DNA from: Phenylobacterium sp.
GTDB taxonomy: Bacteria > Pseudomonadota > Alphaproteobacteria > Caulobacterales > Caulobacteraceae
Assembly (NCBI RefSeq): GCF_004297125.1
Contig: NZ_SCVD01000001.1
Location: 62,001 to 126,000, forward strand
Length of the DNA stretch: 64,000 nucleotides
Direction of reading: 5' to 3'
Part shown: positions 34,253 to 37,391 of the stretch, piece by piece
Layout: the number at the start of each line of letters is the position of its first letter
How positions within the stretch are numbered: the first letter of the stretch is position 1
The notes under the pieces: generated by a model
What the model saw: the letters and a program-made list of their open reading frames with translations, nothing else
Database searches by the model: none
Told to the model about the DNA's origin: nothing
Program-made: the position numbers and the translations under genes

Positions 34253-35017
34253 CTAGTTGGCCCTTGGCGGACCCTCGAACACGTAGAACGGCAGCATCGG
34301 GCGGAGCTGGGCGCCGACCCAGACCTGCGGCTCGGACGGCGGGGTCAACTTCTCGGCCACCTCGCGGGCGCGGACACATTCCCGCACCGCCCCGGCCAGG
34401 CTCCCGAAATCCTTCGCGCCCGGGATCGACGACAGGAAGCAGTCGTCGAAATAGGGGTACTTGATGTCCTGGCCGCAGCCGAACGAGGTGCGGTCGGGCC
34501 GCGCCGCGGTCAGGACCATGCGGTTGGGCTGCGCCAACGTGGGCACGAAAACGCCGGAGAAGCAGGCCGAGATCACCACCACCGTCGGCCGCTTGCCACA
34601 GGTGCGGTCCAGCATGTTGGCCAGCACGCCGGGGCGCAACAGGCCCTGGTCGAGCTGCGCGCCTTCCGGAGCGCCGTGCGAGGTGATGTAGAACATGCAG
34701 CCGCCGCCGGCGCGGCCTGAGAGGTCCGAGAGCGCGTTGAAGATCCCGCGCAGTTCGCTCTTCTCGGGCTTGGTGTCGTTGTAGCGTTCCGGGCGGACCG
34801 AGAACTGGCGGATATTCTGCGCCTGGAAGCCGAGGCGGGTCAGGGCCGCGCTCACATCGCGCCGGGCGTTGTCGAACCCTTCCGATGGGCCGCCATCGTG
34901 GGCGTGCCAGTCGCCGGCCACCACGACGGCCGACCAATCTGAGAACGCCGAGCCCGCCTGCGCTCCACCCGCCGCCGCCAGCCAGATGGCCGCGATGAAA
35001 GCGAGGAGCCGGGCCAT
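34253..35017 (-). CDS. Exported C13 (legumain-like, clan CD) cysteine peptidase
   Basis: Signal peptide; MFYITSHGAPEG (His) and VVVISACFSGVFVP (Cys). Confidence 0.8.
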   Translation of the reverse strand: MARLLAFIAAIWLAAAGGAQAGSAFSDWSAVVVAGDWHAHDGGPSEGFDNARRDVSAALTRLGFQAQNIRQFSVRPERYNDTKPEKSELRGIFNALSDLSGRAGGGCMFYITSHGAPEGAQLDQGLLRPGVLANMLDRTCGKRPTVVVISACFSGVFVPTLAQPNRMVLTAARPDRTSFGCGQDIKYPYFDDCFLSSIPGAKDFGSLAGAVRECVRAREVAEKLTPPSEPQVWVGAQLRPMLPFYVFEGPPRAN

Positions 35018-35026
35018 CCGCGCCGC

Positions 35027-35509
35027 CTACTTCTTGTAGTTGGTGAAAGGTGTGGGAATGGCCGTTCCCGTGGCCTTGGCCAGCAGCCGGCCCTCGGGAT
35101 CGTAGAGCTCGCCCTCGGTGAACGCGACCTGGCGGCCCCACTTCACCACCTTGCCGACGCCCTTGATCTTGCCCGGAGCCCCGGGACGGAAGAAGCTGGT
35201 CTTCATCTCCAGGGTCGGCGCCACGGCGGTCATGCCCGAGGCCACCATGCAGGCCACGCTCATGCACTCGTCCAGCATGGCGCAGAGATAGCCGCCCTGG
35301 ATCTGCTTCATCGGGTTCAGCAGCAGTTCGGCCTTGGCGTCGAACTCCACCTCGACCGACTTGGTCGCCTGGTTCACGCCAACCATCCGGAACCCCAGGG
35401 TCTGGGAGCCGGTGGGCTGGTTCTTGGTGCGCAGGAACCGGTCGAGGATGGCCTCGTCGGTCAGGGCTTCCGGTTCAGCCTTGGCCTCTGCGGCCGCCAC
35501 GTCGGTCAT
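35027..35509 (-). CDS. PaaI-like hotdog-fold thioesterase
   Basis: QIQGGYLCAMLDECMSVACMVASGMTAVAPTLEMKTSFFRP; start at CAT 35507-35509. Confidence 0.85.
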   Translation of the reverse strand: MTDVAAAEAKAEPEALTDEAILDRFLRTKNQPTGSQTLGFRMVGVNQATKSVEVEFDAKAELLLNPMKQIQGGYLCAMLDECMSVACMVASGMTAVAPTLEMKTSFFRPGAPGKIKGVGKVVKWGRQVAFTEGELYDPEGRLLAKATGTAIPTPFTNYKK

Positions 35510-35513
35510 GCGG

Positions 35514-35981
35514 TCATTTCTTCCGGAACTGGTCGAGCGAGACGATGGTGGCCTCGGCCGGCTTCGGCGGCGGTTCGTCCGCCTTGGCGCTGGGCGTCTT
35601 CGCCTCGGGCGCGGCCTTCGCCTCGGCCGGCGCTGCGGGCGGCGGCTCGAACTGCAGCAGGAACTGCACTGAGGGGTCGTAGAAGCGGGTGATCGCCGCA
35701 TAGGGGATCGACAGCCGCTTGGGCTGGCCGCCGAATTGCAGGGTCACCGAGAAGAAGGTCTCGCCGGGCGCCAGGTCCCAGTACTGGTGCTGCAGGACGA
35801 TGGTCATCTCGTCCGGGTATTTCGACAACAGGTCGACGGGCCCGGAGACCCCCGCCGCATCCGTCTTGAAGGTGATGTAGAAGTGGTGCGACCCGGGCAA
35901 CCCGTCGGGCGCCGCCGCCCGCTTCAGCGCAGCCTTGGCCACGCCCCGGAGCGCATCCTGCGCCAGGGCCTCGTAGTTCAT
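35514..35981 (-). CDS. sspB: SspB family ClpXP adaptor
   Basis: HHFYITFKTDAAGV…YPDEMTIVLQHQYWDL…FSVTLQFGGQPKRLSIPYAAITRFYDPSVQFLLQF. Confidence 0.9.
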   Translation of the reverse strand: MNYEALAQDALRGVAKAALKRAAAPDGLPGSHHFYITFKTDAAGVSGPVDLLSKYPDEMTIVLQHQYWDLAPGETFFSVTLQFGGQPKRLSIPYAAITRFYDPSVQFLLQFEPPPAAPAEAKAAPEAKTPSAKADEPPPKPAEATIVSLDQFRKK

Positions 35982-36086
35982 CAGATCCTGGACCGGCGGA
36001 TCCTGGGCCACACGCAATACTCCGAAGCGAAAAGTTCCCCTGGAAGGTAACGTTTGCCGGCCTGCGCGCAAGGTCGGATGGGGAAA

Positions 36087-36251
36087 GTGGGAAGCTTCTG
36101 TCGGCAGATGCCTCGGAGTCTCGGCGAAGTCGCGGGAGAGTTCTTCAACCCAGGGTAAAGTGCGGCCTTTGCTGGCCGGCTCTCCGGCCCCCGCAAGCGG
36201 CGGCGTCTTGGTCATGAAAGAAGGTGGGAGGCTTCTGTTGGCAGGCGCCTC
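36087..36251 (-). repeat. Two copies of a 28-nt imperfect direct repeat, each able to form a hairpin
   Basis: 36087-36114 GTGGGAAGCTTCTGTCGGCAGATGCCTC and 36224-36251 GTGGGAGGCTTCTGTTGGCAGGCGCCTC; 24 of 28 identical, all differences transitions. Confidence 0.7.
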
Positions 36252-36575
36252 CCGGGCCCCGCCTAAGGATCTGAACCCCTAGGACTTAGGTCGGAATTCT
36301 ACCGAACCGCATTACGCGGCGAGGCGGATTTCCTCAGCGAAGTTATCGTTCGCATTTAGTTTAAAACCCGGAACGGTGGGTCAGGCCGAGAGAAAGCAAC
36401 GCCTTTAGACGTCTGTCGATGCTGATCGGCCCCCCAAATTCCCCTCAAGAGTGGCCCGGCGAGAACCCGGAAGGAAATTTGGTGGAGCCGCCGGGAATCG
36501 CACCCGGGTCCAGTCCGCTTATTACACGCGCGTTTATCTCCATAGTCGGGCGAACCCGACGGTTCACATATAGGC
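36224..36575 (-). ncRNA. ssrA: Two-piece (circularly permuted) tmRNA; outer ends approximate
   Basis: Acceptor piece ends …GGACCCGGGTGCGATTCCCGGCGGCTCCACCA (CCA at 36482-36480); coding piece starts GGGGCCG at 36433; 7-bp acceptor stem GGGGCCG/CGGCTCC with G3-U; tag ORF at 36312-36353. Confidence 0.93.
36312..36353 (-). other. tmRNA tag reading frame ANDNFAEEIRLAA*
   Basis: GCG AAC GAT AAC TTC GCT GAG GAA ATC CGC CTC GCC GCG TAA. Confidence 0.93.
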
Positions 36576-36776
36576 GGTCCGGGTCGAGAATCAAAGAACT
36601 GCGCGCAATGCCGCAGGACTTCGGCGCGGGGCGTTTTCGAGAGATTCCATTCGCGAAGCGCCGACGGCGGGCGGGTTTTCGCGGACGGCCACCTGGGTTT
36701 CGTGAGCGGACTCACGGGTTTGGCGGGCGTCCCGCTAGCCTCGGCGACATCGGATTTCACGCCAAGGAGTATTCCC

Positions 36777-37391
36777 ATGGGCAACCTGATCTACGCCGGC
36801 CGCGCGCTGGGCACGGACCTTCTTCCCACCCTCGTCTTCGCCGTCCTGGTGGCCCTGAAGGTCGACGTGGTCATGGCCACGGCGGCGTCGATCGCGCTGG
36901 GCGTGGCGCAGATCGCGTTCATGAAGGTGACCAAGCGAGACATCTCGCGGCTGCAGTGGGCCAGCCTGGCCCTGGTGCTGGTGTTCGGGACGGCCAGCAT
37001 CCTGGCGCACGACGCGCGGTTCCTGATGGCCAAGCCCACGATCGTCTACGCCATCGTCGGCGTGGTGATGCTCCAGAGGGGCTGGATGCTTCGCTACATG
37101 CCGCCGGCGGCCGAGGGCCATGGCGAGGGACCGATGATCGCGTTCGGCTATGTCTGGGCTGGCCTGATGTTCGTGACCGGCGCGGCCAATCTGGCCGTCG
37201 CGATCCTGGCGCCGGCGGTCTGGCCAGCGTTCCTGGCGATCTTCCCGCTGGTCTCGAAGATCGCGCTGTTCGCGATCCAGTTCGTCACCGTCCGCCACCT
37301 GGCGATCCGGTCAGCGCGGGCGTCGGGGGCGACGGACGAGCAGATCCGGGCGCGGATGGCGCAGATGGCGGCCGGGAGTCGGGCGGCGTAG
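36777..37391 (+). CDS. Septation protein A (IspZ/YciB)-like membrane protein
   Basis: LLPTLVFAVLVALKVDVVMATAASIALGVAQIAFMKVTKRDISRLQWASLALVLVFGTASI. Confidence 0.75.
   Translation: MGNLIYAGRALGTDLLPTLVFAVLVALKVDVVMATAASIALGVAQIAFMKVTKRDISRLQWASLALVLVFGTASILAHDARFLMAKPTIVYAIVGVVMLQRGWMLRYMPPAAEGHGEGPMIAFGYVWAGLMFVTGAANLAVAILAPAVWPAFLAIFPLVSKIALFAIQFVTVRHLAIRSARASGATDEQIRARMAQMAAGSRAA

Follow-up and report, generated by a model that had tools for sequence, protein, structure and literature searches.

A permuted tmRNA gene next to sspB in Phenylobacterium and tandem copies of its 3' hairpin in related bacteria

Does the minus strand of this Phenylobacterium genome encode, just upstream of sspB, a tmRNA split into two permuted pieces, and what occupies the spacer between the two genes? 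tmRNA frees stalled ribosomes and marks the unfinished protein for destruction. A reading of the letters alone (the sequence-only reading) had proposed such a gene in the window, i.e., the whole stretch of 64,000 nucleotides analyzed here. We assessed this proposal using covariance models, genome-wide searches and comparison with related loci, and we describe an additional element that the earlier reading did not include, a decayed copy of the 3'-terminal hairpin of the tmRNA in the ssrA-sspB spacer.

The permuted tmRNA gene and its tag

The minus strand of the window carried a complete, circularly permuted, two-piece tmRNA gene, which extended over 36599-36221 overall. The Infernal search with the Rfam alpha_tmRNA model (RF01849), suggested earlier as a check, matched 36599-36223 (-) with 236.6 bits (E 2e-67) and covered the full model from 1 to 355; the gathering score of this family is 50 bits, and the window gene exceeded it across the whole model. 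RF04321 (tmRNA_permuted) matched 36541-36312 (-) with 119.2 bits, and ARAGORN independently reported a permuted tmRNA at 36572-36221 (-) with the tag ANDNFAEEIRLAA. That is, the three methods agreed with the sequence-only reading on the strand and the permuted form, and its coordinates were correct within a few bases. A chance match or a pseudogene was ruled out by the score, the intact acceptor stem and the tag. In the 5.77-Mb genome, RF01849 matched only the window gene, and smpB was present in one copy.

The CCA-ended acceptor piece was placed at 36480-36572 (-) by direct reading, RF01849, RF04321 and ARAGORN, with an uncertain 5' limit (the RF04321 match starts at 36541); its final bases were ...CGGCTCCACCA, with the CCA at 36482-36480 (-). 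The segment that follows, read directly at 36434-36479 (-), would be removed if the precursor matures in the manner known for permuted tmRNAs. The coding piece (36221-36433 (-); direct reading, RF01849 and ARAGORN) began with GGGGCCG from 36433 and ended with the 3'-terminal hairpin. Together, the two pieces formed the 7-bp acceptor stem with a G3-U70 wobble that had been noticed before, and it was both read directly and aligned in RF01849. The T-loop was TGCGATT, not TTCGATT; the RF01849 consensus also departs at this site. The tag reading frame (36312-36353 (-)) was GCG AAC GAT AAC TTC GCT GAG GAA ATC CGC CTC GCC GCG TAA, with codons at 36353-36315 and the stop TAA at 36314-36312, and both direct reading and ARAGORN gave the previously proposed tag (A)ANDNFAEEIRLAA. 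This tag starts with AANDN, the first A of which is supplied by the RNA, and ends with AA-stop; its tail, EEIRLAA, is a species variant of the genus norm EEVRLAA.

The window tmRNA shared with the known alphaproteobacterial two-piece tmRNA (RF01849; RF04321) the full-length match, G3-U70 acceptor stem, permuted order, AANDN tag and 3'-terminal hairpin, whereas the RF01849 structure line lacks this hairpin. The permuted form has already been described (PMC11915505), and the window locus is an ordinary member of a known tmRNA family with a conserved neighbor. From what is known of this family, we postulated that the permuted precursor would yield two mature RNAs and that alanylated tmRNA with SmpB would enter stalled ribosomes and append AANDNFAEEIRLAA. 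SspB, the product of the gene next door, would then bind the AANDN part and hand the tagged proteins to ClpXP. As a whole, this explanation, in which a single ssrA gene would supply a permuted two-piece tmRNA that tags proteins for the neighboring SspB and thereby for ClpXP, appears nearly certain from sequence comparison. Upstream of ssrA, a divergent gene at 36702-37391 (+) matched PF04279 (intracellular septation protein A).

The neighboring sspB gene and its linkage to ssrA

The gene downstream of ssrA (35514-36011 (-)) encodes an alphaproteobacterial-type SspB, the adaptor of ClpXP, with 165 aa and a GTG start. Its ORF matched PF04386 with 143.6 bits (cut-off 27) and gave strong matches to the PDB entries 2qas (231 bits) and 2qaz (228 bits; labelled as SspB); it was the only SspB match in the whole genome. 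Comparison with relatives indicated that the start codon is probably the GTG at 36011. The protein was similar to the alphaproteobacterial SspB adaptors (2qas, 2qaz and 2nys; E 7e-68 over residues 1-146), and its gene occupies the same place downstream of ssrA across the class. Nothing notable distinguished it from these structures, its C-terminal region being alanine/proline-rich and less conserved. After sspB, the window contained a short thioesterase-like ORF (putative) and a Peptidase_C13 gene (34253-35510 (-)); similar ORFs lay in the same order behind sspB in another locus, L138.

The co-oriented position of sspB, which had been claimed earlier, was supported by the PF04386 match; however, the spacer between the 3' end of the tmRNA and the start of sspB measured approximately 210 nt rather than the approximately 250 nt initially given. 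We then considered the conservation of this adjacency in Caulobacteraceae, which had been raised as a check. Loci were fetched around RF01849 matches, and linkage was scored when a co-oriented sspB was present no more than 1.5 kb downstream. Such linkage was observed in 23/29 loci of the genus, 19/26 of the rest of the family, 9/26 of the order and 21/27 of the class, some of the remaining loci being contig ends; i.e., the adjacency is conserved in Caulobacteraceae and the linkage also reaches across the class. We also inspected 25 genomes, mostly those without the close neighbor. In most of them sspB was still located 1.5-12 kb downstream on the same strand, whereas in six (G011, G015, G030, G001, G023 and G051) it was elsewhere or on another contig; in G147, also among the 25, the contig ends. 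As the order of the two genes recurs from genus to class, often even at 1.5-12 kb, the linkage looks ancestral in the class, judging from gene order. AANDN was constant in every tag read (through its ANDN start, for which the search pattern permitted some departures), and the middle of the tag varied. The shared neighborhood across Alphaproteobacteria, together with the fixed AANDN, supports co-evolution of tag and adaptor. A literature search, covering few subscription journals and leaving aside earlier Caulobacter SspB work, returned no statement of ssrA-sspB adjacency.

The sequence-only reading had placed tag and adaptor at one locus, which is correct, but this does not imply one transcript. 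If ssrA and sspB were one co-regulated transcription unit, with adjacency serving the joint production of tag and adaptor, one would expect them to share a strand and be separated by a short spacer, as they are in most Caulobacteraceae and in lineages throughout the class. One would also expect sspB to stay downstream and co-oriented despite intervening genes, as it does in most genomes checked. However, a promoter-like motif, TTGCGC-N14-GTTAC, lies in the spacer at 36047-36071 (-) and is conserved in the genus: TTGCGC-N14-GYTAC was found just before sspB in 16/23 adjacent genus loci, compared with 0.2 expected from shuffles. Because sspB has its own promoter-like motif, adjacency need not mean co-transcription in an operon. 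Given this motif and the six genomes in which the genes are apart, we consider a single co-regulated unit unlikely.

The 3'-terminal hairpin and its additional copies

The coding piece ended in a stem-loop at 36221-36254 (-), with a 7-bp stem and the 14-nt loop GCCTGCCAACAGAA, in a region that the RF01849 structure line leaves unpaired. Across 36 diverse sequences, double changes were observed in 7/7 pairs of this hairpin, 94% of cells paired compared with 63% in shuffles, and CAACAGAA within the loop was invariant.

A decayed second copy was located in the ssrA-sspB spacer at 36084-36117 (-), 137 nt downstream of the tail hairpin. It scored 12.1 bits with the hairpin model, its stem still folds, and its alignment score was 37 compared with a best of 27 in 1000 shuffles (p about 0.001). 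When the hairpin model was searched over the genome, the true tail was recovered at 5e-8 and all other matches were at noise level; copies dispersed through the genome were thus ruled out. The decayed copy would be what is left of a duplicated ssrA 3' end, similar to those found in tandem in relatives.

Many Alphaproteobacteria carried two to five tandem copies of the hairpin at the same place behind ssrA, the largest array having five (L006). Roughly one in four genus loci had extra copies, as did a similar proportion of the other family loci. A scan of a collection of species genomes for two hairpin cores 42-72 nt apart gave, among the matches listed, at least approximately 18 alphaproteobacterial arrays directly behind a permuted ssrA, with Caulobacter, Phenylobacterium, Brevundimonas, Sandarakinorhabdus and Tabrizicola as hosts, as well as MAGs of Beijerinckiaceae, Hyphomicrobiales, Rhodobacteraceae and others. 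Array units were mostly 66-78 nt long, and the unit behind ssrA in one genus genome (L090) was identical to that of Phenylobacterium sp. J367 (L216). Arrays are not a class-wide rule: among 144 evenly sampled genomes, nearly all had a single match and one (G080) had a close second copy under strict filters. In two loci of Sphingomonadales (L185 and L190), a further hairpin-like loop copy (GCCGGGCAACAGAA or ACCGGGCAACAGAA) preceded the tail by 38 nt, seemingly within the tmRNA gene itself.

In the extra copies, the outer 5' arm was usually missing, whereas the inner arm, loop and 3' arm matched. The locus's own first copy was the best or tied match in 22/28 cases, indicating that extra copies mostly arose locally. 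Most Caulobacteraceae arrays, as well as that of Tabrizicola (L239), contained between copies an arm with approximately 11 nt of complementarity to the first hairpin's 5' arm. Where the 5' arm differed among loci by A-T, G-C and C-G exchanges, the complement had changed with it at the matching positions; no good match to such an arm was found in the window spacer.

Both the tmRNA and sspB are of known kinds, and the arrays of the tmRNA 3' hairpin are the part for which no description was found, in a literature search covering few subscription journals. Behind E. coli tyrT, there are tandem repeats containing the final 19 bases of this tRNA gene, and we know of no link between them and an integrase. 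As in the present arrays, a gene for a stable RNA is followed by tandem repeats of its own 3' end, although the RNA and the repeat length differ.

Possible origins of the hairpin arrays

We hypothesized that the spacer hairpins are footprints of mobile elements, i.e., that integrases use the 3' hairpin of permuted ssrA as an attachment site and that copies stay behind after integration, loss or partial deletion. Hairpin patterns and a homology search identified seven IMG/VR contigs that carry a tyrosine recombinase gene facing the ssrA tail, with the end of the gene 60-95 nt away from it. These recombinases were 71-100% identical to the query, with PF00589 found in the two tested; L327 was an eighth such contig, by reading. 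Because an integrase gene lies 60-95 nt away in the seven contigs, one integrase clade probably uses the 3' hairpin as an attachment site, as far as gene arrangement can tell. The clade of tyrosine recombinases facing the permuted-ssrA hairpin at this distance was noted in L331, L334, L327, L315, L324 and L345-L348.

Further observations are consistent with this origin. In L138 (330-2260), ssrA and sspB were separated by a 1.75-kb insert that contained an HSDR_N gene and had an imperfect 44-nt direct repeat of the hairpin unit on either side; this insert was the only case of attL- and attR-like copies around one element, and no integrase was found there. The frequent loss of the outer 5' arm is expected of an attachment-site copy, and a few second copies (L103, L110 and L184) were closer to other lineages than to their own. 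Integration at tmRNA genes is common for genomic islands and phages (PMC11915505). The present case is similar in that an integrase gene adjoins the permuted ssrA 3' end; it differs in that integration would target the 3' hairpin of alphaproteobacterial ssrA and in that relatives carry cargo-free tandem copies. For permuted ssrA of cyanobacteria, integration at the non-tRNA-like 3' end was reportedly described by Williams in 2003.

However, the integrase clade was found neither in 119 Caulobacteraceae genomes nor in 289 genomes of the class, the class search having been run without a positive control. In Caulobacteraceae, only distant relatives (about 30%) were present, none with the hairpin beside it; a resident phage integrase in this family was thus rejected. 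Most arrays lacked cargo, and most other inserts between ssrA and sspB held ordinary genes with no hairpin at the far end, which ruled out the notion that every insert is a hairpin-bounded island. The near-identical units of 68-76 nt in L006, L005 and L239 look like tandem duplication. Footprints of an attachment site followed by tandem duplication are our leading guess for the arrays, one that we would hold at slightly under an even chance. The decayed copy in the window would likely have arisen through integration at an attachment site.

Alternatively, the arrays may be maintained for a role of the additional hairpins at the RNA level, for instance as spare 3' ends or as decoys for a binder of the invariant loop CAACAGAA; the complementary arm would then let the tail alternate between two folds. 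The covariation of all 7 pairs in the tail hairpin, the 5-7 stem pairs kept in many extra copies and the complementary arm with its matched exchanges at most array loci would suit such a role. In the extra copies, 34 pair comparisons were double changes that preserved pairing; however, 67 were broken, both counts including a few matches that are not true copies. In addition, copies decay, the one in the window included, close relatives such as L018 (SspB 96% identical) have no extra copies, and the inter-copy complement could stem from recent inverted copying rather than selection. We consider a selected RNA role improbable.

More broadly, we tentatively propose that the 3' hairpin is a recurrently multiplying element, for which cargo-free arrays with a covarying complementary arm would have arisen repeatedly between ssrA and sspB in Caulobacteraceae, Rhodobacteraceae, Sphingomonadales and Hyphomicrobiales. 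The element would be either an integration site that leaves scars or an RNA structure that alters the tmRNA 3' end; our doubts about this proposal somewhat outweigh our confidence. If the arrays are more than scars, they would offer naturally occurring tmRNA genes whose number of 3' hairpins ranges from one to five, as a series for testing the role of the invariant loop.

Permuted tmRNAs were also encountered in viral contigs. A 100-kb IMG/VR contig carried its own (L147:1798-2169; RF01849, 95 bits; tag ANDNFVMDQSLAA) among 13 tRNA genes. Ten further IMG/VR contigs (L316, L318-L322, L325, L328, L330 and L332) had permuted tmRNAs with two recurrent tag types, ANDNFAHD[DN]FALAA and ANDNFAIED[YF]ALAA, which were not seen in the bacterial loci read; the tmRNAs with these tags may be phage genes. 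In another viral locus (L314:1376-1520), a second 3' hairpin lay 109 nt beyond the permuted tmRNA; its stem differed but was intact, and its loop was altered.
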